Virus record (IMG/VR): IMGVR_UViG_3300032893_000086
Coordinates: 1-47,240 of that record
DNA length: 47,240 nucleotides
DNA from: a virus
Direction: 5' to 3' (one strand)
The notes under the pieces are model-generated. The model worked only from the letters and a program-made list of their open reading frames with translations. It did no database searches and was not told the DNA's origin. Below, piece after piece: positions 1-11,373 of the stretch. How positions within the stretch are numbered: the stretch's first letter is position 1; every line of letters begins with the position of its first letter. The position numbers were made by a program, and so were the translations under genes.

Positions 1-200
1 GTCAATTTTCTCACTTTAAAACACACCACGATTGACCTCTAACCCCCTCTAACTACTACATTTTTAGCAAAAATGCCTATATTTACACCTAATGTCTAGT
101 CTATATACACTTATAACCAATATATTGCCTATAAACTGGCCTAATAGATGCATTATAGGTTAGTATGAAGTTACTAAAACACCTATAAGGGGGAAAATAT
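1..200 (+). promoter_or_regulatory. Leader of the first small gene
   Basis: No gene is seen here. The stretch is AT-rich and contains several CCTATA words (about 76, 128 and 182) and the octamer GTCTAGTC at 94-101, which recurs at 562-569 ahead of the next small gene. An AAGGGGG ribosome site at 187-193 precedes the ATG at 201. A promoter is likely, but no canonical -35/-10 pair could be fixed by eye. Confidence 0.4.
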
Positions 201-440
201 ATGTCTAATAAACAATTTAAGACTTGTCGCAGTTTGGTACAGCACGTACTTGAGTCTCAACACGATACAGGGAAAACTCTGGCTCAATTTAAGAACGATT
301 CTCAAAATGGGATTGTTAAGTTTTACCAGAATGAGATTATTCCATTGTCTCATTTGTGTACTCGCCCTGTAACGTTTCAGTCCGTTAATCGCTATGTCGA
401 GATGTGGATTAAAACGAGACAAGCTAACCTGAATAAATAA
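201..440 (+). CDS. Hypothetical small phage protein, 79 aa
   Basis: Not recognised. The 79-residue product is basic and probably mostly helical, with no signal peptide or membrane segment and one Cys near each end region. The ATG at 201 is supported by a strong AAGGGGG ribosome site 7 bases upstream. It stands alone, rightward, with the same type of leader as the 30-codon gene at 609. It lacks the LYG tail of the small proteins further right. An early host-interaction role is only a guess from size and position. Confidence 0.7.
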   Translation: MSNKQFKTCRSLVQHVLESQHDTGKTLAQFKNDSQNGIVKFYQNEIIPLSHLCTRPVTFQSVNRYVEMWIKTRQANLNK

Positions 441-608
441 GTCCATATAAGCCTATATCGTACACTTGAGTATATAGCTTGAGTGTACCATTATGGGATT
501 ATGTGTTTATATAGTGATTACATATACTTATAGTAGAAAATAATTTTCATTTTTTACTAAAGTCTAGTCAATAGACGCCGATAAGTATATTGTAACAAGG
601 GGGAATAT
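441..608 (+). promoter_or_regulatory. Intergenic leader with inverted repeats
   Basis: GTACACT at 460-466 and AGTGTAC at 482-488 form a perfect 7-bp inverted repeat with a 15-base loop. GTCTA/TAGAC arms at 562-566 and 572-576 form a second, shorter one, and include the GTCTAGTC octamer shared with 94-101. AAGGGGG at 597-603 is the ribosome site of the gene at 609. The first repeat could be an operator or a weak terminator; no T-tract follows it. Confidence 0.4.
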
Positions 609-701
609 ATGAAAATCACTGTAGTAACTAAAAAGATGAGTGATAAGCAACTGAAACAATTGGAGAGTTTAGGCTTTAAGGTGACTGTAGTTATTAAATA
701 A
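609..701 (+). CDS. Very small hypothetical protein, 30 aa
   Basis: A 30-codon frame with ATG 5 bases after a strong AAGGGGG ribosome site and a TAA stop. The product is Lys-rich and looks like beta-helix-beta: an ITVVT strand, a KQLKQLESLG helix and a VTVVI strand. It is too short for family assignment. The leader, nearly the same as that of the gene at 201, is the main reason to believe it is expressed. Confidence 0.55.
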   Translation: MKITVVTKKMSDKQLKQLESLGFKVTVVIK

Positions 702-1064
702 TACTAATGTATCATAAGTGAACAATAGGTCTATTGTATCATATTGATATTGTTAGTAAATTTGAATAGTCTCAAAGTGGGACGTAGCAAAGGGGGATAC
801 GGCAGAAATTGTCACCTCCCCCGGACCCCCACCAGGGGTTTTCAGACCTTTCCCAAAATTTTAAAAAATTTAAAAATAGGCACTTCACATTTTAGTTATA
901 GCAATATATACAAATATGCAGTTTTGTGGCAAATACATACGTTTTAAGGTAGTATTCTAATGATTTCAAGCACTTACAAGAACCTTAAGGTTTACAATCT
1001 CCGCAAGGGTAGGCTTTAAATGAGGTTTATAGGGAAAAGGTACGATCTAAATTTTTAAAAAAAT
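702..1064. other. Gene-poor stretch between rightward and leftward genes
   Basis: About 360 bases without a convincing gene. It holds an orphan AAGGGGG at 790-796 that no good frame follows. A GC-only 4-bp hairpin with a T run (827-842) is a weak rightward terminator candidate. A 12-bp palindrome AACCTTAAGGTT lies at 981-992. Two near copies of an A/T run (about 852-878 and 1049-1075) are also present. A 19-codon frame at 960-1019 cannot be supported. Confidence 0.5.
827..842 (+). terminator. Weak candidate terminator hairpin
   Basis: CCCC at 827-830 pairs with GGGG at 835-838 across an ACCA loop, followed by TTTT. The stem is short but all G-C. It would end transcripts of the two small rightward genes. 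Confidence 0.3.
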
Positions 1065-1295
1065 TTAAAAAAGGGCTTTTATAGCGGTATGGACGCCTAT
1101 TTTGTAAAAACCGGCTAGAGAGCGCTCTCCGTAGAGGCCGTATAAACCATTTACTTCGATTTGACGGTTATTTAGCCTTTGAAACTTATATTGTCCTTTA
1201 AGGGGGTCGTATTCCAATATAGCTACAGGCTCATCACAATCAGACATGATAATATCTCCAACCTCAAAATGCGCTCTTGTATAAGTTCTAGCCAT
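1065..1295 (-). CDS. LYG-family small protein, 76 aa
   Basis: Last gene of the leftward array; function unknown. The N-terminal half has the set's FEVGDI start, as in SH3-like beta barrels, and the extreme C-terminus is KALF, a truncated form of the (V/A)L(Y/F)G tail. An internal GLYGLYGE also echoes the motif. The ATG at 1295 is chosen over one at 1316 because GGAG lies 10 bases upstream and the FxxGD start is then close to the N-terminus as in its relatives. The preceding gene stops 3 bases before this start. Confidence 0.7.
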   Translation of the reverse strand: MARTYTRAHFEVGDIIMSDCDEPVAILEYDPLKGQYKFQRLNNRQIEVNGLYGLYGERSLAGFYKIGVHTAIKALF

Positions 1296-1297
1296 GT

Positions 1298-1495
1298 TTA
1301 TAGGTCTCCAAACCATTCTGGAGGTTTTTGGTCAGTGTTCTTTAGGGCCTTCTTCAACTTACGTTGTTCCCAGGCTTCTAAAGCGCAAACTAGCCCTACC
1401 ACGAAGAATAGTATTGACAGGCATATAGCCAATTCTAACCAGGTTACAGGAGGGCCTTTAACGCAATTGTGGTGGAAATGGCAAGGAAGGATCAC
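1298..1495 (-). CDS. Small one-helix membrane protein, 65 aa
   Basis: Not recognised. One hydrophobic helix (about residues 19-40, running from WLELAICLSIL to LVCAL) is followed by a charged, Lys-rich tail of some 25 residues, so the likely topology is a short outer N-terminus, one membrane helix and a cytoplasmic tail. The start is GTG at 1495, overlapping the TGA of the gene upstream (GTGA). It pairs with the membrane protein at 1492-1707; together they could act at the host membrane. No lipobox is seen. Confidence 0.65.
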   Translation of the reverse strand: MILPCHFHHNCVKGPPVTWLELAICLSILFFVVGLVCALEAWEQRKLKKALKNTDQKPPEWFGDL

Positions 1496-1707
1496 TTAGC
1501 TACTACCTCTTTTATATATTGGTTATAATGGATGTGGGCTACTGAACTACCAATGGCTCCTACGCTGCTTAGGAGGCTCGCTGTAAGGAGCAGCTCAACG
1601 CAGGCTTGCATGGTCTTAGGTGCGCCGTCTTTCCATATGTTGGCGGCTATAATGAAGCTAAACCAGGCCCCAGCGTGTACGATGTAATGGTGTAGGTATT
1701 CAATCAT
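1492..1707 (-). CDS. Small membrane protein, 71 aa
   Basis: Not recognised. Two hydrophobic stretches are visible: about residues 13-26 (GAWFSFIIAANIW) and 35-54 (a Leu/Ala/Ser-rich helix). This suggests a two-helix membrane protein. The ATG at 1707 overlaps the TGA of the upstream gene (ATGA), and its own stop overlaps the GTG of the one-helix membrane gene downstream. Holin-like or superinfection-exclusion roles are possible, but nothing in the sequence decides this. Confidence 0.65.
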   Translation of the reverse strand: MIEYLHHYIVHAGAWFSFIIAANIWKDGAPKTMQACVELLLTASLLSSVGAIGSSVAHIHYNQYIKEVVAK

Positions 1708-1976
1708 TTTTTATTGTCCTTAAATAGTACCTTAGCTGCAGGGCTAAGTTGGGTTACTTCTTCTAGGTTTACTGGCTTCTTTAGTTTAGCGTTCCATAAG
1801 TCTGTACCTTCAGGGTCTAGGCCCATCTTCATTTGAAAGGCTTCCATCTCAGTTATATGGTACATAGTTCCAGTCTTTTTATCCTTATATAGTTTTTTGG
1901 TATGGTCGTCAGGCATTCCTGACCTTTTGCCTCTACCTATAGCCTTATTCTTTTTCTTGTAGTTAAACTCTTTCAT
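1704..1976 (-). CDS. LYG-family basic small protein, 90 aa
   Basis: Function unknown. The N-terminal 35 residues are very rich in Lys and Arg. The centre has a short beta-like TGTMYHITEME segment, and the C-terminus is AAKVLFKDNKK, a VLF variant of the shared tail. ATG overlaps the upstream stop (ATGA), and its own stop overlaps the next ATG in the same way. The VLF codons carry no embedded start, so the motif is kept here without that constraint. Confidence 0.75.
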   Translation of the reverse strand: MKEFNYKKKNKAIGRGKRSGMPDDHTKKLYKDKKTGTMYHITEMEAFQMKMGLDPEGTDLWNAKLKKPVNLEEVTQLSPAAKVLFKDNKK

Positions 1977-2293
1977 TTAGTGCCGTATAAAACCTTTAAA
2001 GTATTTAAGTCTACTTTTTCGCCTATAAGGGTGCCGTAATGTACTATTGTGTTTCTTTTTATAAACCTATTGTGAAATTGGTCTGTAAAGGTCTTTCCTT
2101 CGTTTAGTCCCTCTTCTTCAGGGGTAATCATAACTCTTTTGAGCTTCCACATGCCGTTAGAGTTCTTTTCTTTAACTTGGTAAAAGCCGAAGGCTCCTTC
2201 TACAACGTTAACTCCGCTCCAAGAAAAGCTCCTAACAATAGGGAACATCCAAACTTGCCCTAACCTAATGTAAGGTAAGTTATCGGTGGCCAT
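1973..2293 (-). CDS. LYG-family small protein, 106 aa
   Basis: Function unknown. The N-terminus has RLGQVWMFP, a variant of the family (F/Y)xxG(D/E/Q) start, followed by beta-rich sequence and the C-terminal tail LKVLYGTK. Tyr is encoded by TAC, so no ATG is hidden in the LYG codons; the next gene instead starts at an ATGA stop overlap. The gene's own ATG lies inside the TATGGC (Tyr-Gly) codons of the gene upstream, a 14-base overlap. Confidence 0.8.
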   Translation of the reverse strand: MATDNLPYIRLGQVWMFPIVRSFSWSGVNVVEGAFGFYQVKEKNSNGMWKLKRVMITPEEEGLNEGKTFTDQFHNRFIKRNTIVHYGTLIGEKVDLNTLKVLYGTK

Positions 2294-2516
2294 ACAAAGC
2301 TCTACCTGCTGGAGTATTGGGTATCCAATTTCCTGAAGTAACTTTTATACGTATCTCTTCTTTAGAGTAGCTGGGGCTGAAATGGGGAATGAACTCTCCC
2401 TCTCCGTTCTTACGGCTAGCAATCTGGCAACACGTTCCGTGTTTAGAAACGTTGAACAGCCTGTATACTATCCCAGTTTGCCACTCCAAGTATTCAGCTC
2501 CTTTTACCAGTTCCAT
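2280..2516 (-). CDS. LYG-family small protein, 78 aa
   Basis: Function unknown. A beta-rich protein with a YxxWQTG.VYRLFNV segment after the N-terminus, two adjacent Cys (about 29-30) and the tail GRALYGHR. Its ATG lies in the Tyr-Gly codons (TATGGA) of the upstream gene, a 23-base overlap, and the next gene's ATG lies in its own TATGGC. It has no separate strong ribosome site, so translation is probably coupled to the upstream gene. Confidence 0.8.
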   Translation of the reverse strand: MELVKGAEYLEWQTGIVYRLFNVSKHGTCCQIASRKNGEGEFIPHFSPSYSKEEIRIKVTSGNWIPNTPAGRALYGHR

Positions 2517-2784
2517 ATAGAATCCTGCTAGCTTCAGTGTCGGGTAGGGTTTCGTATTCTCCGTTCAATATCCCTTTAACCTTAACCCCTTCTGAGGAGT
2601 TTTGTAAAGTATATTTTAGTTCTGTTGAATCTTCGCCCATCTGTATTGGAGTAATGCTATAACGTTTATCGGCTAAGACGGCCCTAATGAGCGTTTTAAA
2701 GTCCTCCGGGCACGTCAGGATCTGAGCCTCGTATTCAGTACATTCTACTAATTCATTAGTTAATTTATTTCGTACAAGGGCCAT
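2494..2784 (-). CDS. LYG-family small protein, 96 aa
   Basis: Function unknown. A helical-looking first half (ECTEYEAQIL, then a Lys/Arg-containing helix) and a beta-rich second half end with SRILYGTGKRS. It lacks the clear xxGD start of most relatives. Start and end are both overlapped: its ATG is inside the VLYG codons of the upstream gene (20 bases), and the next ATG is inside its own ILYG codons. Confidence 0.8.
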   Translation of the reverse strand: MALVRNKLTNELVECTEYEAQILTCPEDFKTLIRAVLADKRYSITPIQMGEDSTELKYTLQNSSEGVKVKGILNGEYETLPDTEASRILYGTGKRS

Positions 2785-3031
2785 ATAGAACTTGTAAGCC
2801 TTTACCTTTAATAATTTCTAACTTTAATATAGTATCTGGAGTTATAACGTAACCTGCTATACTATCTTCTTCTAGTCTATCTATATACTCAAAACAATGT
2901 ACGTAAGGTTGAGGCTTTCCTTCGTAGTGGCAAGCGTGATGTTCTATGCCTCTATAACGTACAGGACGTAAGTCCCTTTCGTTGTTTTGCCCTTTTATAA
3001 TATATATTTCTCCAATATGTAAATCTTTCAT
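2765..3031 (-). CDS. LYG-family small protein, 88 aa
   Basis: Function unknown. It starts with the family pattern LHIGEIYIIKG, continues with several beta-like strands and a His/Cys-containing HHACHYEGK segment (about 33-41), and ends LQVLYGPCTK. ATG at 3031 is preferred because GGA lies 6 bases upstream. A TTG at 3049 that overlaps the previous stop (TTGA) is an alternative adding six residues. The VLYG codons contain the ATG of the next gene. Confidence 0.75.
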   Translation of the reverse strand: MKDLHIGEIYIIKGQNNERDLRPVRYRGIEHHACHYEGKPQPYVHCFEYIDRLEEDSIAGYVITPDTILKLEIIKGKGLQVLYGPCTK

Positions 3032-3045
3032 ATTAGATCCAATAA

Positions 3046-3321
3046 TCAATTGGTACGTTTAAAGAAAGTGTCAATTTCATCTTGAGTAGCTAAACGGTAA
3101 CTATTATCAGCGTATTGGAAAGTAAACCAATGTTGTTCTCTCTGTGAGTTACCGTCTCCAGTTCCTGGCACGTAGAAGGTTCCATTTGGGTTGGCTAGTA
3201 AATACCTATTACTTGTTGCGTCTATAGATATTACCACCTTTGGAGCTGGCCTCTTTTTAAACCTTCCGTCCATGTAAACTTCCTGAAGCATAAGTTTATC
3301 GCCTACGTTATATTTCGCCAT
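3046..3321 (-). CDS. Small beta protein, EID-tail paralogue A, 91 aa
   Basis: Function unknown. It has the family start YNVGDKLML but not the LYG tail; it ends YRLATQDEIDTFFKRTN. The gene at 3556 ends almost the same way (FRLADQYEIDLYFP) and has a matching GDK start and central strands, so the two are diverged duplicates separated by one LYG gene. ATG is embedded in the ALYG codons of the gene upstream (14-base overlap). Confidence 0.8.
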   Translation of the reverse strand: MAKYNVGDKLMLQEVYMDGRFKKRPAPKVVISIDATSNRYLLANPNGTFYVPGTGDGNSQREQHWFTFQYADNSYRLATQDEIDTFFKRTN

Positions 3322-3547
3322 ATAAAGCCTCTACTGTGGGGGTAAAAAGAAGCATGACTTTATAATCGTAGATTAAAGAGTGTAGTGTTTCTGGAGCTAA
3401 TGCCTTCTTTGCCTGGTATACAAAATCTGGGTCTGTTTTCTTCTTTAGAGAAAAGCTCCATGAACCCATATGAGTTTGTTCTTCCAGTTTATAAAGAGCT
3501 TGGTTAAACGTGCATAAGAATATTTGGCCTGGTTGTAGGATTAGCAT
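3308..3547 (-). CDS. LYG-family small protein, 79 aa
   Basis: Function unknown. Starts LQPGQIFLCTF (family xxGQ variant), then a YKLEEQ strand and a Lys-rich middle, and ends VEALYGEI. ATG at 3547 has its own ribosome site, AAGGAG 4 bases upstream, lying across the stop region of the preceding gene, so this gene can start independently. The ALYG codons contain the next ATG. Confidence 0.8.
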   Translation of the reverse strand: MLILQPGQIFLCTFNQALYKLEEQTHMGSWSFSLKKKTDPDFVYQAKKALAPETLHSLIYDYKVMLLFTPTVEALYGEI

Positions 3548-3555
3548 ATTGCTCC

Positions 3556-3819
3556 TTAAGGGAAGTATAGGTCTATTTCGTATTGGTCGGCAAGCCGGAA
3601 GTTATTTTCCAGGTCAAACTGGGTAAAACGTCTAGTTCCTGCTGCGTCTTTGTTATATGGGATTTGAACAAAATAGGTTCCAGTTTGTGCCGAAAAAGAG
3701 CTTACCACGTAAATGGTCGGTGGCGCATTGGTCTGCGCCCTCGGCGATAAGGGTTGCCGGACGAAGTAGGGGTTTTCGTATACTATCTTATCCCCCGGTT
3801 GGAACTTTGGGCTCGCCAT
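3556..3819 (-). CDS. Small beta protein, EID-tail paralogue B, 87 aa
   Basis: Function unknown. Starts FQPGDKIVYE, has a Pro/Ala/Thr-rich loop (about 24-34), then beta strands TIYVVSSF and TYFVQIPYN, and ends FRLADQYEIDLYFP. It aligns by eye with the 3046 gene over start, middle and tail. ATG is embedded in the TLYG codons of the upstream gene (32-base overlap). The last four residues lack the LYG motif of most neighbours. Confidence 0.8.
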   Translation of the reverse strand: MASPKFQPGDKIVYENPYFVRQPLSPRAQTNAPPTIYVVSSFSAQTGTYFVQIPYNKDAAGTRRFTQFDLENNFRLADQYEIDLYFP

Positions 3820-4123
3820 AAAGGGTCTCCGTGGTTTGTTGGCGTTTCTTTGCCTCTTCTTCAGGTATCCACTCAGCTACTTCGTATAGCCCTGACAAAT
3901 AAGATTGTTTGATTACGTCCTCGACTTGTTCAACAGTCAGTCCCTTCAATTCAGGAATAGCGTCAAGTTTGTGCAAAAGCTCTGCGTGGCCTTTCCAGCC
4001 TAACGGCCCCTGAGCTATCTTTATTCCCTCGTTAAGTTTTTCTACAAACTTCTCGTGAGGTACTCCAACTTTAGCTACAAGTACTTTACCTTCTAAAAAC
4101 TTATCTGCCTCTTCGTCAGCCAT
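3788..4123 (-). CDS. LYG-tailed helical protein, 111 aa
   Basis: Function unknown. Unlike its neighbours it looks helical and acidic: residues about 20-75 hold amphipathic helices with KFVEKLNEGIK and VEQVEDVIKQ. The C-terminus carries TETLYG followed by ten more residues, the longest extension after the motif in the set. This suggests that the tail motif is attached to more than one kind of fold. ATG directly follows the TAA of the small Lys-rich gene upstream. Confidence 0.75.
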   Translation of the reverse strand: MADEEADKFLEGKVLVAKVGVPHEKFVEKLNEGIKIAQGPLGWKGHAELLHKLDAIPELKGLTVEQVEDVIKQSYLSGLYEVAEWIPEEEAKKRQQTTETLYGEPKVPTGG

Positions 4124-4264
4124 TTAGTCTCCGTAGTTGATTTTATCGTATCCGATAGTAGAAGCTGGAGGAGTATATTTACTAAATCGCTTACTATCTT
4201 TTTTCTTTGAAGTTTTCTTAGGAGCCTTTTTAGTTGGCTTCTTTGTAGGTTTCTTTTTGCCCAT
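4124..4264 (-). CDS. Very basic 46-aa protein
   Basis: A 46-codon frame with nearly half Lys/Arg in its first 30 residues, made of repeated KKPTKK/KKAPKK units like histone-tail or DNA-condensing peptides, ending INYGD. It begins 1 base after the stop of the charged 132-aa gene, and its stop touches the ATG of the next gene, so it fills the gap exactly. Nucleic-acid binding is inferred only from charge. NYG resembles the neighbouring LYG tails but may be chance. Confidence 0.6.
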   Translation of the reverse strand: MGKKKPTKKPTKKAPKKTSKKKDSKRFSKYTPPASTIGYDKINYGD

Positions 4265-4265
4265 A

Positions 4266-4664
4266 TTAAACCTCTCTAGCTCCTGGATCTTTCTTTTCTA
4301 GTTCTGGAGTTGGCTCTGGGCGTTTCTTGTCGTTAAGTTTACGTTCTTTCTTATCTGCCTTCTTTGGAGCTTTTTCTTTCTTTTCAGACTTGCCGCTTTT
4401 GTTAACTGTAGGTCCAGTTTCTTCAGCTCCTTTTTCGGATTTGTGAGGCTTCACTCCGTTCTTAGCTCCGTCTTCTTTTATCTCTTTCAAACTAACGTAG
4501 TGTTCGCTTTTCTTCAAAGATTCTTCGTCAGCTCGTGGATGACGGTGGTCAATCTCGCCTCGTTCTCCTCGGTCGGAGGGAGAGCCTCGCTCTTTTTTAG
4601 CTGCGTTACTTGTTTCATTTACAGCGTTGGTATCTGCGTTTCCATCACTTCTTTTCTTAGCCAT
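4266..4664 (-). CDS. Charged, disordered protein, 132 aa
   Basis: Not recognised. Almost the whole chain is low-complexity Lys/Glu/Asp/Arg/Pro with no hydrophobic core, so it is probably disordered. The middle (about 52-65) has a short EHYVSLKEIKED segment that could form a helix. ATG is embedded in the Asn-Gly-stop codons (AATGGCTAA) of the gene upstream. It ends just before the equally Lys-rich 46-aa protein; the pair may act together, for instance on DNA or RNA. Confidence 0.75.
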   Translation of the reverse strand: MAKKRSDGNADTNAVNETSNAAKKERGSPSDRGERGEIDHRHPRADEESLKKSEHYVSLKEIKEDGAKNGVKPHKSEKGAEETGPTVNKSGKSEKKEKAPKKADKKERKLNDKKRPEPTPELEKKDPGAREV

Positions 4665-4863
4665 TATTTTCTCCTATAAGTTCATAATCATATTCAAGCG
4701 TAACCAAGCTCTCCCCTTTTTCTTTACCCTTTTTATCAACTAATACGTAAGCGTCGTATTCCATACGCTTCAATGTAAATTCTTCTTCAGTGTCAATATT
4801 TTTAAATTGAGTACCAATCTTATATTTAGGTTTTGGAATTGGATTTTTAACTCTAATTGCCAT
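4657..4863 (-). CDS. Small beta protein, 68 aa
   Basis: Function unknown. The N-terminus has a Pro/Lys-rich arm and then the family pattern YKIGTQFKN followed by strands FTLKRM, YVLVDKKGK and LVTLEYDYEL. It ends ENNG without LYG. The last codons still embed the next ATG (AATGGC), and its own ATG is in the VLYG codons of the gene upstream. It looks like a minimal form of the family domain without the tail. Confidence 0.78.
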   Translation of the reverse strand: MAIRVKNPIPKPKYKIGTQFKNIDTEEEFTLKRMEYDAYVLVDKKGKEKGESLVTLEYDYELIGENNG

Positions 4864-5095
4864 ATAACACTTGTAAAGTTTTAAGCTCCTCTTTAGGTAT
4901 TAGTATGAAGCTATACTTAAAATCGTAAGGGTCAATTCTATACCCATCTCCTGTCTTGATATTTTCTAAGAAGTAAATATGAGCTTTTCCGCCTTGAAAC
5001 CCGGACAGAGCTTTCAGGATAAAGACGGAGCCATCTATGCCTCTATAGAACATACCAGCGACAGCAGAATTAACTTGGGCGTCAGTTTGAGCCAT
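4853..5095 (-). CDS. LYG-family small protein, 80 aa
   Basis: Function unknown. A beta-rich domain (AGMFYRGIDGSVFILKAL, then AHIYFLEN) ends LKTLQVLYGN. The tail is close to that of the 2765 gene (LQVLYG). ATG shares one base with the stop of the Nfu-like gene upstream (TAATG), so the two are probably translated together. The VLYG codons contain the ATG of the next gene. Confidence 0.8.
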   Translation of the reverse strand: MAQTDAQVNSAVAGMFYRGIDGSVFILKALSGFQGGKAHIYFLENIKTGDGYRIDPYDFKYSFILIPKEELKTLQVLYGN

Positions 5096-5319
5096 TACCG
5101 CTCAAGCATTACGTCAATTAAACCTTCGCAATTTTCAAGTAGCAAAGGCTTAATTCCATTAAGAAAAGTCATTTGTCGGCCTGGGCAACCTTTGCAACCG
5201 CCTTGCATTCTGACCAGAGCGACAGAATCGTAAACGGTAACAAGCTCGCAACTTCCTCCGTGGGAAGCTAATTGAGGGTTAACAATTTCATTAATAACTC
5301 GTTTAATTTCGTTTTCCAT
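5095..5319 (-). CDS. NifU C-terminal domain (Nfu-type) Fe-S carrier
   Basis: The 74 residues match a single Nfu domain from end to end: an N-terminal helix (EIKRVINEIVNPQLASHGG), a strand with CELVTVYDSVALVRMQG, the cluster motif GGCKGCPGRQMT with the CxxC at about residues 42 and 45, and a final helix and strand (NGIKPLLLE..IDVML). In bacteria such domains hold a 4Fe-4S cluster between two subunits and pass it to target enzymes. An extra Cys is at about residue 24. A good ribosome site (AGGAG) precedes ATG 5319. It lies among LYG-family genes. The target is unknown: host Fe-S assembly or a phage Fe-S enzyme outside this window. Confidence 0.9.
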   Translation of the reverse strand: MENEIKRVINEIVNPQLASHGGSCELVTVYDSVALVRMQGGCKGCPGRQMTFLNGIKPLLLENCEGLIDVMLER

Positions 5320-5364
5320 TAAAGTCTCCTTTTTTCCAAAAGTAACTTACAGCCTAGCTGCGTG

Positions 5365-5607
5365 TCAAGAATTATTATATAAAATAATTTCGGTTGGGGT
5401 TGCGTGCCTTATGGCGTACTGATGGGTTTCTGATATAGTAGCCCCATCAAGGGTCGCCATAGTTATATAAACTTCCCAATGATTATCTTTGTATTCTTTT
5501 GTGTTACGAACTTCTATGATCTTCCATAGCCTAAAAGGAGAACCTTCAACTTCTGAGAAAAGTTGCTCCAAATTACTCACCACAATATCGCCAGCTTTAA
5601 AGTTCAT
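5365..5607 (-). CDS. LYG-family small protein, 80 aa
   Basis: First gene of the leftward array; function unknown. It has the family start FKAGDIVVSN, strands RLWKIIEVRN and WEVYITMATLDG, and the tail TEIILYNNS, an LYN variant. The ATG at 5607 has no clear ribosome site. A GATAAT-like -10 on this strand (positions 5628-5633) would give a leader of only about a dozen bases. About 45 bases separate it from the Nfu-like gene. Confidence 0.78.
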   Translation of the reverse strand: MNFKAGDIVVSNLEQLFSEVEGSPFRLWKIIEVRNTKEYKDNHWEVYITMATLDGATISETHQYAIRHATPTEIILYNNS

Positions 5608-5805
5608 GGTTTAGTTCTTTTCTAGGTATTATCCTGATCTAGTTCTTTTATATATTATATATTAACGCTCTTTTATATATTACAGTTCTTTTCTAGATTA
5701 ACTGTATTAATAACCTTCTAAAAACTTAACAAAAAGGTTACCTTTTGTAAAGCCTTCTTAAAAATAATTGTTGACACCTGTTTAAATTCTTGGCATAAGG
5801 TAGTA
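5608..5805. promoter_or_regulatory. Divergent control region of the two small-gene arrays
   Basis: About 200 AT-rich bases between the leftward and rightward arrays. AGTTCTTTT-type repeats lie at 5613-5621, 5641-5649, 5684-5692 and, degenerate, 5666-5674. An odd palindrome AAAAGGT-T-ACCTTTT is at 5732-5746. For rightward transcription there is TTGACA (5771-5776), 17 bases, then CATAAG (5794-5799). For leftward transcription, GATAAT is read on the minus strand at 5628-5633, with no good -35. The repeats and palindrome are candidate binding sites for one or more regulators. Confidence 0.6.
5771..5799 (+). promoter_or_regulatory. Sigma70-like promoter candidate, rightward
   Basis: Perfect -35 TTGACA, a 17-base spacer and a -10 CATAAG that matches four of six consensus bases. 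The expected start of transcription falls at or next to the ATG at 5806. TAAGG inside the -10 could instead be the ribosome site of that gene, in which case the real start lies further upstream. Confidence 0.5.
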
Positions 5806-6135
5806 ATGAGCTTAAAACCTGACGTTATATACATGAGTCCTAAAAACTACGATGACCTCCAAAAGCTATTGGACGACGATTACATTAAAAAGCACTACGC
5901 CAAGTGTCAAAAGTTTATGCAACTTTTCCACGAAGGCGTGGTATTTCAACATATTGGATCTGATATACACTGGGTAGTAGTCTCCACTTTTAAACATTGT
6001 GGGACTGGTGAAGTTAGGTGTAGGATTAGGTCTCTTTATGGTAAAGCCACAAAAGAGCTAAGTATGGATAAATTCAATCATTATAGGCTAATATATGCGC
6101 CCCCAGCGGTAGAGGTATTGTTTGGAGACAAATAA
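5806..6135 (+). CDS. LYG-family small protein, 109 aa
   Basis: First gene of the rightward array; function unknown. The N-terminus LKPDVIYMSP is a variant of the family start. The middle has a Lys-rich helix and strands HWVVVSTFKH and EVRCRIRSLYG; the tail is VEVLFGDK. Here the motif has Phe, encoded TTTGGA, and the next gene starts at the TTG inside it. AAGG 5 bases upstream of ATG 5806 is a possible ribosome site, but a promoter -10 overlaps it. Confidence 0.8.
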   Translation: MSLKPDVIYMSPKNYDDLQKLLDDDYIKKHYAKCQKFMQLFHEGVVFQHIGSDIHWVVVSTFKHCGTGEVRCRIRSLYGKATKELSMDKFNHYRLIYAPPAVEVLFGDK

Positions 6136-6418
6136 TGTCACCGCCCCTTTTCCAAAAGTAGGGGATTGTGTTGTTTTTACCAGCGAACATCACCTAGCTA
6201 ATGGAAATATCATCGAAAAAGGCCAATTTTGTGAAGTTTTGGAGGTTCAGATTCACATGAATAGTAGTTTTGGCGCTGAAATATGTAGTTATTTCATATA
6301 CTTATCTACAGCCAGTGGATATGTTATAGAATTTAATTACAGCCTACATTTGAAAAAGCTACAAATTGTGCCAAATTCAAAAACATCAAAGGTATTATAC
6401 GGAAGTGACAAGGTTTAA
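6122..6418 (+). CDS. LYG-family small protein, 98 aa, TTG start
   Basis: Function unknown. Family start FPKVGDCVVFT near the N-terminus, then beta strands, and the tail SKVLYGSDKV. The only start that keeps the GD region is TTG 6122, which lies inside the Leu-Phe-Gly codons (TTTGGA) of the gene upstream, exactly where other genes in the array have ATG inside Tyr-Gly codons. Its own Tyr is TAC, so no start is embedded and the next gene uses a GTG a few bases later. Confidence 0.75.
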   Translation: METNNVTAPFPKVGDCVVFTSEHHLANGNIIEKGQFCEVLEVQIHMNSSFGAEICSYFIYLSTASGYVIEFNYSLHLKKLQIVPNSKTSKVLYGSDKV

Positions 6419-6611
6419 AAAGGGAGATTTTGCTCTCCTGCAAGGACAACTAGTTGAAATTATTGACATAATTATTCCTGGTAAGAACTTCAAGATAGCT
6501 AGATTACGGGTAAAATTATTGAATACTAGGCTCACTAATTGGGTTATGGAGGATGAGATAGATAAATTATCTAGTCAAAATGCTCCAAAAGTACTTTTTT
6601 CGGCTCGCTAA
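6405..6611 (+). CDS. LYG-family small protein, 68 aa, GTG start
   Basis: Function unknown. Starts FKKGDFALLQG right after the N-terminus, has strands VEIIDIII and KIARLRVKLL and an MEDEIDKL segment like that of the EID-tail pair, and ends APKVLFSAR. GTG 6405 is chosen because it puts FxxGD at the usual place and overlaps the stop of the gene upstream by 14 bases; a longer frame to 6366 would add 13 atypical residues. Last gene of a three-gene run. Confidence 0.7.
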   Translation: MTRFKKGDFALLQGQLVEIIDIIIPGKNFKIARLRVKLLNTRLTNWVMEDEIDKLSSQNAPKVLFSAR

Positions 6612-6659
6612 ACGTTGACTTAGTATACACATTATAATAGGGTATGGAGCTATCACCCT

Positions 6660-6887
6660 ATGAATTTTCGAGTCGTATTATGGCAAAGCGCCATATTCAT
6701 TGTATTAGGTATAGGGTACAACAAGAGATTTGACCCGCCAGATGTGTTTTATGCGGTCCCCTTAAAAGATAGCCTAGTCAAATCCATTATAACGAATCTG
6801 GAGTTAACAGAGATACCCTTCCACGAAGCTACAGAAATCACTGATAAAAGCGTAATTAAAGCTATTTGGATACTTTATGGAAAGTAA
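6660..6887 (+). CDS. LYG-family small protein, 75 aa
   Basis: Function unknown. The N-terminal third (VVLWQSAIFIVLGIG) is more hydrophobic than in relatives but lines up with their strands. The tail is AIWILYGK with the next ATG embedded in TATGGA. ATG 6660 is preceded by GGAG with 10-base spacing. A 48-base gap with an AT-rich block separates it from the gene before, so a new transcript may begin here, although no good promoter was found. Confidence 0.7.
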   Translation: MNFRVVLWQSAIFIVLGIGYNKRFDPPDVFYAVPLKDSLVKSIITNLELTEIPFHEATEITDKSVIKAIWILYGK

Positions 6888-7104
6888 ATTCAGTATCGGT
6901 GATATAGTGTTATATGATGATAACCTATACAGGGTGATTAAATTATATGCACCCAATTGGAACTTGGATAATCCTTTTGTTTACGGCCTAGCGCTGATAA
7001 AGAGCGACCCCAAGGAACCTGTAGACGGTAAGTTGCTTACTGTTAGAGAGCCTTTGTTGTATCCAGTTTCTGGAACATGGAAGGTACTGTATGGCAAAGA
7101 CTAA
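6877..7104 (+). CDS. LYG-family small protein, 75 aa
   Basis: A typical member of the set: FSIGDIVLYDDNLYRVIKLY at the N-terminus reads as an SH3-like barrel start (GD turn, then a strand and a YRVI strand), and the tail is WKVLYGKD. The next ATG lies in its TATGGC codons, and its own ATG lies in the ILYG codons of the gene before. Function unknown. A structural model of this gene would be a good test of the family fold. Confidence 0.82.
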   Translation: MESKFSIGDIVLYDDNLYRVIKLYAPNWNLDNPFVYGLALIKSDPKEPVDGKLLTVREPLLYPVSGTWKVLYGKD

Positions 7105-7378
7105 AGAAACTTCCGATTACGTAAATGAGGTTATGGAGCATTTAATCAAAAAGACTAAAATAGCTCCGTTCGATCCTAATAAGAAATCTGTTGACTTTAA
7201 ATTGGCCGACATAGTAAAGTGCAGTTACATAAAAGGTTTATTCATGGTGATGGAAATTCACCCAAATGAGATATTGATTTATCCGTTTGATCATGAAGGC
7301 AAGAAGGAAGTTGTTAGACCCGGATTTTTAGAGAAACAAAACGTAAATAAAAATACAATGAAAGTCTTATATGATTGA
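7091..7378 (+). CDS. LYG-family small protein, 95 aa
   Basis: Function unknown. A 35-residue N-terminal extension with a basic helix comes before the family domain, FKLADIVKCSYIKGLFMVMEI. The tail is MKVLYD, ending directly after the motif with Asp in place of Gly. The next ATG is embedded in TATGAT. The extension suggests that the tailed domain can carry added N-terminal parts. Confidence 0.8.
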   Translation: MAKTKETSDYVNEVMEHLIKKTKIAPFDPNKKSVDFKLADIVKCSYIKGLFMVMEIHPNEILIYPFDHEGKKEVVRPGFLEKQNVNKNTMKVLYD

Positions 7379-7637
7379 CCCAGAAGTTGGAGACTACGTA
7401 ATATCTCCAAATAAGATATACGAAATTACTGGTAAGTATAAAGACGGATTGATTTTACGTTATAATGTGAGGCAAGTAGATAATCCTGCTGATGCTCTAG
7501 AATTTAACAATATAGAACAAATAGTAGATTATATAGATACAACAGCTATTACATTAAGTAAGTTGAGGCATTTAGGAGAGATAGTTAAAAAAGAGGAGGC
7601 TTCAAAAGCGTTAGAAGTTCTGTTTAAAAATAGCTAG
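7371..7637 (+). CDS. LYG-family small protein, 88 aa
   Basis: Last gene of the rightward small-gene run; function unknown. Starts PEVGDYVISPNKIYEITG (GD turn and YEIT strand), has a helical C-terminal third, and ends LEVLFKNS. The TTTAAA codons hold no start, and the next gene begins 17 bases after the stop with its own ribosome site. This marks the switch from coupled small genes to ordinary late genes. Confidence 0.8.
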   Translation: MIDPEVGDYVISPNKIYEITGKYKDGLILRYNVRQVDNPADALEFNNIEQIVDYIDTTAITLSKLRHLGEIVKKEEASKALEVLFKNS

Positions 7638-7654
7638 TTACTAAGGAGACTCCA

Positions 7655-8005
7655 ATGGCCAAAGTCAAAAAATCTAAAAAAGCTAAAACAGAAAAGAAGC
7701 CCAAAGTTGCAGAGGAGCCAAAGCAACTTAGCCCCACCGAATACGAACAATTAGGAAGAGACTTGGACACTTTTCAAGATTCTTTTCTTAGTTTCTTAGC
7801 AGGCACTTCTCAGTTCGAGGTAGTTCCTACTACCGATGAAGAAGGCAATCAAATTCCAGAAAAGAATTTAGAACTAATCCGACGAGAATGTACTCGATTA
7901 GGATTTAGAGTACTCTATTCTGTTGATTATGGAAAGAATGTTCTATTCATTAATCCGGATACGATGAAAATAGGAATAATGACTCACACTGTAGAGGTTC
8001 ATTAG
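7655..8005 (+). CDS. Hypothetical protein with basic N-terminus, 116 aa
   Basis: Not recognised. The first 25 residues are Lys-rich and probably disordered; the rest (about 30-116) looks like a mixed alpha-beta domain with a FRVLYSVDYG segment and a final strand. ATG follows a good AAGGAG. It sits between the small-gene array and the packaging genes, about 100 bases before the zinc-ribbon gene. It may belong to either block. Confidence 0.75.
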   Translation: MAKVKKSKKAKTEKKPKVAEEPKQLSPTEYEQLGRDLDTFQDSFLSFLAGTSQFEVVPTTDEEGNQIPEKNLELIRRECTRLGFRVLYSVDYGKNVLFINPDTMKIGIMTHTVEVH

Positions 8006-8077
8006 TTATAGGTTGATACCTTCTCACCCCTTAGCTTCAAAGCTCAAAGGAAGGCACTCCAACTATACAAACTAATA

Positions 8078-8103
8078 CCTCTTTTTGTGTTTCAGAAGAG
8101 GAG
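8078..8103 (+). promoter_or_regulatory. Hairpin that may cover a ribosome site
   Basis: CCTCTT at 8078-8083 can pair with AAGAGG at 8096-8101, which overlaps the GAGGAG ribosome site (8098-8103) of the gene at 8107. The 12-base loop makes it only moderately stable. It could tune the start of the packaging module. Confidence 0.3.
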
Positions 8104-8106
8104 ATT

Positions 8107-8331
8107 ATGTCACGCATTAAGTACAATTGTAAAAATTGTGGCTGGGAAACTTCTATTCGAGAAGAATGGGGAGACCTAAAGCCAAAGCGTTGCATGAATA
8201 AGAAGTGCAACACTAGTTTCATTAAGAACCCAGAGGCTCTTATTGTGACTAAACCTGAAATTAAGGTTGAAGAATCAAAACAAAAGAACCAGAAGAAGCC
8301 AAAGCATACAGAGGTATCTAAGGCTGAATAA
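8107..8331 (+). CDS. Small zinc-ribbon protein, 74 aa
   Basis: Four cysteines at about 8, 11, 29 and 34 (CKNCG ... RCMNKKC) form a probable zinc ribbon in the first 40 residues; the last 35 residues are Lys/Glu-rich and disordered. Such ribbons bind nucleic acid or proteins. Its place just before the small terminase gene suggests a role in packaging or late gene control, but this is inference. The GAGGAG ribosome site 3 bases upstream of ATG may be masked by a hairpin. Confidence 0.7.
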   Translation: MSRIKYNCKNCGWETSIREEWGDLKPKRCMNKKCNTSFIKNPEALIVTKPEIKVEESKQKNQKKPKHTEVSKAE

Positions 8332-8338
8332 GGTACAT

Positions 8339-8899
8339 ATGGAAAACGATAACAGCAATAACCCCAAACCTGAAGTTCAAGAGAAGATCGTAGCTAAGTT
8401 GGCTGCCCAAAAAGCGGTTAAAGCTCTTAGTAACGGCAATTCTAATTGGAATCTTACTCAAGAAATTCTTCAAGACGTTCACGCTGCACATATTGTCGCC
8501 AATCCTAACAAGCAACCTCCAGTAACAGAAATGGTTGAGGAGCTTAAAAGAGAGATAGAGACAAGGTACGCAGACGAACCGGAAACAAAGGAACTATTGA
8601 TTAATAGTATTCCTACTATTCAGAACGTCAGAGGATGGTTTAAGAAAGAAGGTTGGGAAGAAGCTGTTTGGAAAAAAGTAAGAGGAGATAGTTTATTCTC
8701 CCCTGAAAAACGAGCACAAGTAATTGAGGCTTTAAGAAAAAGATCTGTAGACCCCAATAAACCTTCAGACGTAGCAGCTAAAATTTGGCTGACTCTATCT
8801 GGAGACTATAGTGAAAAAATGGAAGTTACAGATAAGAGCCTTGATGCGTATAGAGAAATTAATAGTATACTTCATCGAAAGAGTCGAGAAGAGAAATAA
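8339..8899 (+). CDS. terS: Terminase small subunit, putative
   Basis: 186 residues, helical, directly upstream of the large terminase with 2 bases between them. Small terminase subunits recognise phage DNA and regulate the packaging motor. The C-terminal part (about 135-186: DVAAKIWLTLSGDYSEKMEV, then an Arg/Lys-rich helix) resembles the end of small terminase or terminase-associated proteins, and the N-terminal half could hold a helix-turn-helix (WNLTQEILQDVHAAHIV). ATG 8339 is chosen over an upstream in-frame start because it follows an AAGG and clears the previous gene. The call rests mainly on position and size. Confidence 0.65.
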   Translation: MENDNSNNPKPEVQEKIVAKLAAQKAVKALSNGNSNWNLTQEILQDVHAAHIVANPNKQPPVTEMVEELKREIETRYADEPETKELLINSIPTIQNVRGWFKKEGWEEAVWKKVRGDSLFSPEKRAQVIEALRKRSVDPNKPSDVAAKIWLTLSGDYSEKMEVTDKSLDAYREINSILHRKSREEK

Positions 8900-8901
8900 C
8901 T

Positions 8902-10518
8902 ATGTCAATTAAAGTCGAAGAAACAAATGAAGGTAAACCTTTACGAATACATGATCTAGACATCGAAGCTCTAGCTCAATATTTGATGCAAAAGAGAGTA
9001 AGAACTTCTCAAGGTAAGCTCATTGTTCCTTTGCACTCAGGACATAAAGAAGTATTGACCGACCCCGCCCGATTTAAAGTTTTAGCCTGCGGTAGACGCT
9101 GGGGCAAAACACTCTTAACAAGTTTGATTGCACTTGCAGTATTAATGCAAATGAACAGAAGAGTATGGATCGTTGCTCCTGACTACGGGCTAACTGAAAA
9201 GGTGTTCAGAGAACTCTATCATATCTTAGTTATTCAACTACAGATTATTCGTCCAGGCAGACCTGGAGGCGGTAGAGCCAGGAACCAAAAGGGAGACTAT
9301 TATTTAGAAACTCCTTGGGGATCAGTACTTGAAGCTAAATCAATGGAAAACCCAGACTCACTAGCCGGGGAAGCCAATGATTTAGTTATTGTCGATGAGG
9401 CGGCTTTGACGCCAACTCTAGACGATATTTGGACTCAGATGATTCGACCCACTCTTATGGATAAAGAGGGGTCGGCTATTTTCATTTCTACTCCTCGTGG
9501 AAAAAATAGCTTCTACAAAATGTTCATGTTTGGTAACGTTGGAAGAAAACAACGTAGTGGTAAGTTAGAAATCACTTACGACGAAGAAACTGGCACTACA
9601 AATGACCTGAGAGATTGGTCGTCATTTCAAAGAACAAGTTATGACAACCCATTGCTAGCGTCAAGTCCAGAAAAATCTAAAGAAGAAATTGATCTTGCTT
9701 ACCGTTCTGCGGTTCTAGAAGGCAAGGTTACTAAGTTCAAACAAGAATATTTAGCTGACTTTGAAGCTGTTGCTGATAGTTGTTTTCCAGGCTTCATAAT
9801 CGAAAAAGACGAAAAGCATCCCCATCCTAATGTCATTGATTATATTTGGCATCCAGATGAAGGCCCTATCTTTTCTTCTTCAGATTATAACTTTGCAAAA
9901 CCCGCTAGTACTATATTTGCCCAAGTGAATAAGTATGGAGATGTAGTTATCTTTGATGAAAGATTTACTGCTCATACTACCACTTATATGCAAGCCCAGC
10001 AAATTCTCGACAAAGAAGCAGAGCTTACTCGATCTGCTTTTAAGATTTGGAATAAAGAATATACTCCACAATCAGTACGCAGACATATTAAGTTTGCAGA
10101 GGTTATTGGGGATATTAGTGGAGACCAAGTTCAGTTGAATGGTCGAGCAGCTTGGGATGACATGGAATCTGTATTAAAACGGAGACCTGTCGGACTTAAG
10201 CAAGAAAGAGAAGTTGGTTGTAACATGGTCAGGCTGTGGATGAGTTATCCTCAGTTTGATGAACGTGGACGACCAATGTTAGATGAGAATAGAGAACAGA
10301 TCACTAGACCAAAACTCTTTATTAATAGTAACTGTGTGAATCTTATCTACGCTTTGAGTACAGCCACTTTCAAAAAAGGAAAGAATGGCGTTTTAAAAGA
10401 AGATTACGAGGAGACTCCCGAAGGACACGAAGGGCTATTAGATGCTTTACGTTATCTATTAGTTTTCTTGTTTCATGACCGTGGAGATAAAATGACAGTG
10501 ATTCAAGGAGTTAATTAA
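8902..10518 (+). CDS. terL: Terminase large subunit
   Basis: The 538-residue packaging ATPase/nuclease. Walker A is GRRWGKT at about 64-70, Walker B LVIVDE at 161-166, and the coupling segment FISTPRG at 194-200. The C-terminal RNase H-like nuclease begins with SSDYNFAKP (Asp near 328) and has a late Asp in the EGLLDALRYL segment (near 514). It drives DNA into the prohead through the portal and cuts concatemers. Length and motif spacing are normal. The TAA overlaps the next ATG by one base (TAATG). Confidence 0.95.
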   Translation: MSIKVEETNEGKPLRIHDLDIEALAQYLMQKRVRTSQGKLIVPLHSGHKEVLTDPARFKVLACGRRWGKTLLTSLIALAVLMQMNRRVWIVAPDYGLTEKVFRELYHILVIQLQIIRPGRPGGGRARNQKGDYYLETPWGSVLEAKSMENPDSLAGEANDLVIVDEAALTPTLDDIWTQMIRPTLMDKEGSAIFISTPRGKNSFYKMFMFGNVGRKQRSGKLEITYDEETGTTNDLRDWSSFQRTSYDNPLLASSPEKSKEEIDLAYRSAVLEGKVTKFKQEYLADFEAVADSCFPGFIIEKDEKHPHPNVIDYIWHPDEGPIFSSSDYNFAKPASTIFAQVNKYGDVVIFDERFTAHTTTYMQAQQILDKEAELTRSAFKIWNKEYTPQSVRRHIKFAEVIGDISGDQVQLNGRAAWDDMESVLKRRPVGLKQEREVGCNMVRLWMSYPQFDERGRPMLDENREQITRPKLFINSNCVNLIYALSTATFKKGKNGVLKEDYEETPEGHEGLLDALRYLLVFLFHDRGDKMTVIQGVN

Positions 10519-10832: not shown

Positions 10833-11062
10833 TGAAACAAGTAGTTTACCGTCAAAATAAATTATTTATCATAGACAAAAGTTTAATCGTAGCTCCTGCT
10901 AATAAAAAGGATTCTATTTGCAACGCTTTGTACGCTGCTATATACACAGAGTTTTTAGGCGCAAGCGAACATCCTACTTATAGCAAAATGACAAACTTCG
11001 ATAGGTATAAAGCCTTAAATAAGTTTGCATACGATTGGCTTAAGTCGAGAGGATTGATTTAA
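10832..11062 (+). CDS. Hypothetical protein, 76 aa
   Basis: Not recognised. Begins with two short strands (KQVVYRQNKLFIIDKSLIV) followed by a helical part with several Tyr (ALYAAIYTEFLG, FDRYKALNKFAYDWLKSRG). ATG 10832 overlaps the previous stop (TAATG) and is preferred to in-frame starts further upstream that would run through the preceding gene. Its stop overlaps the next ATG in the same way. It lies between terminase and portal genes. Confidence 0.7.
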   Translation: MKQVVYRQNKLFIIDKSLIVAPANKKDSICNALYAAIYTEFLGASEHPTYSKMTNFDRYKALNKFAYDWLKSRGLI

Positions 11063-11373
11063 TGAAAAAACAAAAACAGTCAACCATTGATCCCAAGGCT
11101 ATGCCAGAAATGGTCCATAACCACAGGATGAAACAGGTTTCTCCTCCACAGGAAGCTAACAGAGGCATGGACGGTAAATACGCCCTTAGCCGTGCTGAAG
11201 CTGCTCAATATTGGTTTAAAGCTGCAAAAGAACAACATCCAGATAATGGATTTCTTGGCGTTGGGCTTAAAGATGTTGATGCAAAAGAAGCTACTGGAAA
11301 GTTTGAAAATAACAGACCTGCCGAGGCGATGACCCTATACAAAGGCAAAAAGAAAGAAATTGTAGAGGAATAA
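11062..11373 (+). CDS. Hypothetical protein, 103 aa
   Basis: Not recognised. Polar and Lys/Glu-rich, with a helical middle (SRAEAAQYWFKAAKEQ) and disordered ends. No membrane segment. ATG overlaps the previous stop (TAATG). It lies in a run of four small genes between terminase and portal, and may be a minor head component or assembly factor. Confidence 0.7.
   Translation: MKKQKQSTIDPKAMPEMVHNHRMKQVSPPQEANRGMDGKYALSRAEAAQYWFKAAKEQHPDNGFLGVGLKDVDAKEATGKFENNRPAEAMTLYKGKKKEIVEE

Follow-up and report, generated by a model that had tools for sequence, protein, structure and literature searches.

A C-terminal peptide shared by unrelated small proteins of one phage subclade: a candidate docking tag whose codons often hold the next start

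Sets of proteins that carry the same short docking peptide at one terminus are known from encapsulins, with their cargo-loading peptides, and from phage T4, with its capsid-targeting sequence (CTS), which is N-terminal and cleaved. The bacterial sliding clamp is bound through the motif QL[S/D]LF, in which, by the numbering used here (Leu = 0, Tyr/Phe = +1), position -3 must be Q and position -2 hydrophobic, and T4 gp45 is bound by C-termini. Degrons of the ssrA type, recognized by ClpXP, need a free C-terminal LAA. Here we describe a C-terminal peptide, referred to as the tail, on small proteins encoded by a 47,240-base tailed-phage fragment from IMG/VR (IMGVR_UViG_3300032893_000086, positions 1 to 47,240; hereafter the window), which carries terminase, major head protein and baseplate wedge genes. 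The tail is found at the end of 17 genes in two divergent arrays of small genes (1065-7637) upstream of the terminase genes.

The tail resembles the encapsulin cargo peptides and the T4 CTS in being short, terminal and attached to unrelated proteins, perhaps through a flexible linker. It differs from both in sequence and from the CTS in the N-terminal position and cleavage of the latter. A hydrophobic L-F/Y near the C-terminus is shared with the clamp-binding motif and the gp45-binding C-termini. However, the pattern Q-[LMI]-x-L-F was not found: position -2 is mostly K/E/R/Q (mostly K/E) and position -3 is mixed in the 183 tails described below. No clamp family was detected among 20 scanned proteins of a large related record (G006). 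A literature search of open-licence papers returned no relevant account of a phage-wide C-terminal motif; an earlier description is possible.

A C-terminal tail on small proteins of one subclade

A first-pass annotation of the window had reported a common C-terminal motif on at least 17 small array genes, and all 17 tails are present (Table 1). They follow the pattern [A/T]-x-[K/E/R/Q]-[V/I/A/T]-L-[Y/F] within the last 16 residues. A few deviate at -2 or -4; the opening (T/A)xx proposed earlier was borne out, with A or T at -4 in nearly all window tails. Using an automatic gene caller, [VAITLMC]L[YF] was found in the last 16 residues of 16/39 small window proteins, compared to 2.2 ± 1.4 (maximum 8 of 2000) when the tails of the same 39 proteins were shuffled. 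Relatives identified via the terminase (69-80% identity) carry the same tails in their small-gene arrays. A clade sample of 12 records, window included, comprised 763 non-redundant small proteins, and the tail was scored in their last 16 residues. It was present in 183 of them (shuffled 36.7 ± 5.6, maximum 55 of 200). Elsewhere in the clade proteins the pattern was rare, with 4.7% at the N-terminus, 3.4% in mid-protein stretches and 1.7% in large proteins. Four sister records, with 63-67% identity in the head protein (major capsid protein), were at background (G016 4/122, G017 2/138, G018 3/107, G019 2/59), and most of these phages encode more than 100 small proteins each. RHEph10, T4, P-SSM2 and loci with distant terminases had the tail in 0-4.3%. 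Since sister and unrelated phages show only background, the tail is a property of one subclade. An equal frequency in unrelated proteins had been named earlier as a refuting observation; unrelated phages and large proteins gave background only. The observation is real and clade-specific, and it holds at the level of protein.

Conservation of the peptide itself is evident from its codons. The tail Leu is encoded by both TTR and CTN, with all six codons in use, and the Tyr/Phe codon is TAC/TTC in 35 tails. Two of these are the window genes at 1973 and 6122, in which Tyr had rightly been described as TAC without an internal start. When the flanks [KREQ][VIATLM].[YF] alone were required, the middle residue was L in 132, I in 23 and F in 1 case (n = 190). 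Mid-protein stretches of the same proteins showed no Leu preference between those flanks. We also compared orthologues defined by their bodies only. Of 61 pairs with at least one tail, both members were tailed in 50, while in the same pairs body Leu was kept in 46% and body Y/F in 67%. Among the 11 exceptions, several come close to the pattern (AIYT, AIYE, SLYD) or are members of a head-region family. The family of the gene at 7371, which is array-terminal and has no overlapping next gene, keeps the tail (EVLFK, KTLFG, EILFK, KILYG, KILYD).

The bodies in front of the tail differ. Body clustering with a looser tail pattern gave 19 entries, two of them too short to test, and the 17 tested window bodies fell into 17 clusters at E<1e-3, none mutually related. 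Ten tailed window proteins were searched against Pfam and PHROGs, and others against Pfam; none scored above the curated Pfam cut-off and no PHROG was found at E 0.01. Two bodies were modelled. For the protein encoded at 6877, AlphaFold2 predicts an SH3-like barrel (mean predicted local distance difference test (pLDDT) score 64), with residues 60-68 and 73-75 below 50. This model aligns with SH3-like/KOW barrels, namely EF-P domain I, CarD and NusG (Z 5.4-6.9, root-mean-square deviation 2.2-4.7 over 51-62 residues). The likeness is one of generic arrangement, and no sequence family was found. The protein encoded at 3788, expected to be helical by the first-pass annotation, is indeed predicted to have a helical fold (body pLDDT mostly 80-89, residues 99-111 below 50); a fold search with this model against PDB and viral models gave no credible match. 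The same peptide is seen on non-homologous bodies, among them a predicted barrel and a predicted helical fold. In six orthologues of the 6877 protein the linker between body and tail varies in length through indels, and no consecutive columns other than L-Y-G are invariant.

The tail comes in lineage-specific versions. The window, G001, G003 and G006 use [A/T]x[K/E]VL[Y/F], whereas G007 uses [G/T/S]ELx[E/K]A[I/L]Y[E], with Leu at -4 in 36/42 tails. E[L/M]x[K/R][V/I/L]LY is typical of G005 and, more loosely, of G012, and WxEILY of G011. Which residues stand at -5, -4, -1 and 0 varies with the genome (permutation p 0.001). The dependence holds at -4, -1 and 0 with one representative per related body (permutation p 0.001), and at -4 also when the tails are limited to those with TAC/TTC. 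Orthologues change dialect with their genome, as in TEAAIVLFGGK/TELASAIYT, PTTKILYGK/TEMTKAIYE and TEASDILYGK/TDEWWEILYKE. Thus the earlier view that the peptide is kept at the protein level on differing bodies is supported by codons, body-only orthologues, two predicted folds and dialects alike.

Possible docking function and alternatives

A short C-terminal peptide common to many unrelated proteins suggests an address tag for one partner. We regard a C-terminal docking peptide for one common partner as the best reading; it is unproven, and we judge it somewhat better than an even chance. The tag would sit on many small, mutually unrelated proteins from the arrays of one clade, and one phage or host partner would read it. 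Because of the spacing of its hydrophobic residues, the tag is probably an amphipathic helix, which would make contacts at -4, -1, 0 (Leu/Ile) and +1 (Tyr/Phe). Drift of the partner's groove would be followed by all tags of a lineage, giving each lineage its own version; indeed, one dialect per phage is what is expected if one partner reads all of its tags. The first-pass annotation had arrived at a similar interpretation. Its common C-terminal, protein-level peptide stands, and docking to one partner is still what we infer.

Several points weigh against docking. The records come from metagenomes, with many fragments among them, and the genes stem from a home-made caller. Most of the tail has a pLDDT below 50 in both models, but few sequences (6 and 3) went into the underlying alignments; the low values may therefore mean missing data, and a disordered tail is only suggested. 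Finally, the tail is enriched on SH3-like-looking bodies containing G[DQESN] (131/220 vs 168/542), which is expected from the end of a shared ancestral fold.

The last point belongs to the chief alternative. Here a small SH3-like fold, widespread and ending in a final strand and then a helix (..RIATPAGKVLFG), would simply pack this C-terminal helix, the tail, on its own barrel, and other carriers would have arisen by gene fusion or chance. Many tails do come after an apparent final strand plus TP or EL, the 6877 model is such a barrel, and the untailed window genes 3046-3321 and 3556-3819 (both -) end in a related-looking RLA(T/D)Q.EID.(F/Y)F. However, the tail is not confined to one fold, as 89/220 carriers lack the G[DQ] signature and the 3788 family is tailed on a predicted helical body. 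Variable linkers speak against packing on the own core, as may the low tail pLDDT. With the reservation on alignment depth made above, neither of the two models places LYG in a buried final strand, which had been proposed as a refutation of the shared-peptide view. Genome-wide dialects are not expected if each protein packs its tail separately, and the sister phages are rich in small genes without the tail. Overall, we consider this explanation unlikely, though it is the most serious competitor.

Regulated proteolysis appears improbable. According to this explanation the tail is a degron that clears early proteins, possibly via phage ClpP and a host unfoldase. As in ssrA-like degrons, the signal is C-terminal and sits on many proteins; several of these phages have a ClpP gene, G006 has a Pfam Clp_protease gene beside its DNA polymerase gene, and all four large tailed records contain ClpP-like genes. 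Such genes are also found in the untailed G016 and its relative G020, however, and the motif is followed by 0 to 13 variable residues without a fixed last residue (183 tails), unlike ssrA-like ClpX signals. ClpP was likewise rejected as the docking partner, since its presence does not track the tail.

A phylogenetic profile was used in the search for a partner. Genes present in the four large tailed records and in none of three untailed ones included an RNase H-like exonuclease, CYTH and DUF736 proteins, all clade-specific, and gave no obvious reader. The large record G006 encodes a PolA-type polymerase, DnaB helicase, ligase, RecA, ERF, EndoVII, B12-type ribonucleotide reductase, ClpP, SPFH and VWA proteins. 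A host search by terminase and capsid scans of genome contigs gave no match. The function of most small early phage proteins is not known, and a shared tag would place them at one site. With between about one-sixth and one-half of a phage's small proteins tagged, the partner would provide a handle on all of them.

Overlap of the tail with the next start codon

In the window, ten tails overlap the next start at the Tyr/Phe codon (T ATG or T TTG) and seven do not (Table 1). If an overlap is defined by an ATG/TTG that begins a downstream reading frame of 40 codons or more, the Tyr/Phe codon holds the next start, one base in, in 84/183 clade tails and not in the other 99. The first-pass annotation had treated this overlap solely as something to exclude and missed that 10/17 window tails, and the 84 in the clade, also serve the next gene as its ribosome-binding site and start. 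AAGG/GAGG is commoner upstream in overlapping tails, and the K/E-V/A codons lean towards Shine-Dalgarno-like letters. In G007, AAG, GAG and GCT are used at the K/E and A positions far above the record's own codon usage. The final G, earlier taken as part of the motif, did not hold up: G follows Y in 63/84 overlapping vs 22/99 other tails. It is mostly start-codon context, and the motif is therefore not 'LYG'.

The enrichment of AAGG/GAGG, the codon skew and the exact position of 84 tails on a downstream start could be taken to mean that the peptide is a mere by-product of the next gene's ribosome-binding site and start (AAG-GTN-CTN-T-ATG-G). As the sole cause this is already contradicted, and we rate it as very improbable. 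The 99 tails lie off any start, the 35 with TAC/TTC cannot be ATG/TTG, array-terminal genes keep the tail, and position 0 accepts Leu from all six codons and Phe almost never. Moreover, in G007 the Leu at -4 is encoded ahead of the Shine-Dalgarno-like letters and thereby beyond the start region, and its codons match the genome's codon usage. These observations show that the start overlap does not by itself explain the peptide; it is a true second layer over the protein-level tail, and a clean case of bases constrained both as coding sequence and as a start signal. A further reading takes the DNA at the junctions for a seam at which gene cassettes are shuffled by recombination, with the peptide as its translation. 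It would suit the tails at gene junctions and the strongly differing array content of relatives, but is already weak and very unlikely, because freely varying Leu codons and TAC/TTC variants leave no fixed DNA word.

Besides the proposed docking, the tag codons have a second use in about half of the genes, supplying a Shine-Dalgarno-like sequence and the next start, and this overlap would link the translation of successive array genes. The arrays resemble translational coupling by overlapping genes (PMC12548453) in that the next start lies inside the end of the previous gene in about half of the cases. Such coupling is not known to require a fixed peptide, and the phage tail persists without overlap. 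More tentatively, and possible rather than probable, a lineage-specific tag may recruit dozens of unrelated small proteins to one co-evolving phage or host hub, with its codons reused as the next start so that tagged genes could be inserted as cassettes.

Array coordinates and neighbouring elements

Table 1. Tailed genes of the window and other features of the window and related records.
Feature	Coordinates	Strand	C-terminus	Remark
Small open reading frame (ORF), array-terminal	1065..1316	-	..HTAIKALF*	no downstream start
Basic small ORF	1704..1976	-	..SPAAKVLFKDNKK*	no start overlap at motif
Small ORF	1973..2293	-	..LNTLKVLYGTK*	Tyr = TAC, motif without start
Small ORF	2280..2516	-	..TPAGRALYGHR*	TATG starts 1973-2293
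Small ORF	2494..2784	-	..DTEASRILYGTGKRS*	TATG starts 2280-2516
Small ORF, TTG start listed, internal ATG	2765..3049	-	..GKGLQVLYGPCTK*	TATG starts 2494-2784
Small ORF	3308..3547	-	..TPTVEALYGEI*	TATG starts 3046-3321
ORF with predicted helical body	3788..4123	-	..QTTETLYGEPKVPTGG*	TATG starts 3556-3819
Small ORF	4853..5095	-	..LKTLQVLYGN*	TATG starts 4657-4863
SH3-like-looking ORF	5365..5607	-	..TPTEIILYNNS*	no overlapping start
Small ORF	5806..6135	+	..PAVEVLFGDK*	TTTG supplies TTG start of 6122-6418
SH3-like-looking ORF	6122..6418	+	..SKTSKVLYGSDKV*	Tyr = TAC; no start overlap
SH3-like-looking ORF, GTG start	6405..6611	+	..QNAPKVLFSAR*	closes sub-array, no overlapping start
Beta-rich-looking ORF	6660..6887	+	..KAIWILYGK*	TATG starts 6877-7104; L(Y/F) kept in orthologues of other records
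ORF with predicted SH3-like barrel	6877..7104	+	..GTWKVLYGKD*	TATG starts 7091-7378
Small ORF	7091..7378	+	..NTMKVLYD*	TATG starts 7371-7637
SH3-like-looking ORF, array-terminal	7371..7637	+	..KALEVLFKNS*	no downstream start at motif
NifU C-terminal-type domain protein	5095-5319	-		in array
Head-region protein	11062-11373	+	TLYK (gene-caller match)	not in tail set
Promoter-like element TTGACTTAGTATACACATTATAATAG	6615-6640	+		between sub-arrays
Promoter-like element, relatives	L037:12099, 13156; L068:7837, 8914			
Promoter-like element, relatives	L057:14107, 13040; L060:15789	-		
ClpP-like protease (Pfam Clp_protease), G006	L041:9179-9781	-		beside DNA polymerase gene
LigD-type primase-polymerase region and DnaB helicase domain in one protein, G006	L041:12505-14559	-		
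SPFH/Band 7 protein, G006	L042:3970-5169	-		early region
DUF2201 metallopeptidase/VWA-like protein, G006	L042:8134-9594	-		early region

The RLA(T/D)Q.EID.(F/Y)F end of the two untailed genes mentioned above may be a variant of the tail. The head-region protein probably represents a family separate from the array tails and was left out of the tail set; its (D/E)MLYKGKKK end is found in several relatives and lost in others. ClpP-like genes also occur in G012, G013, G014, G016 and G020, and several records have second, more distant copies.

An Rfam scan of positions 1-9000 of the window gave no match. Within the array, the small NifU-type protein (Pfam NifU, E 4e-18) resembles a phage-encoded Fe-S scaffold. 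The promoter-like element between the sub-arrays is conserved: an element TTGACTTAGTATACACATTATAAT with an inverted GTRTAYAC core recurs at matching array places in relatives and is possibly an early promoter with an operator.

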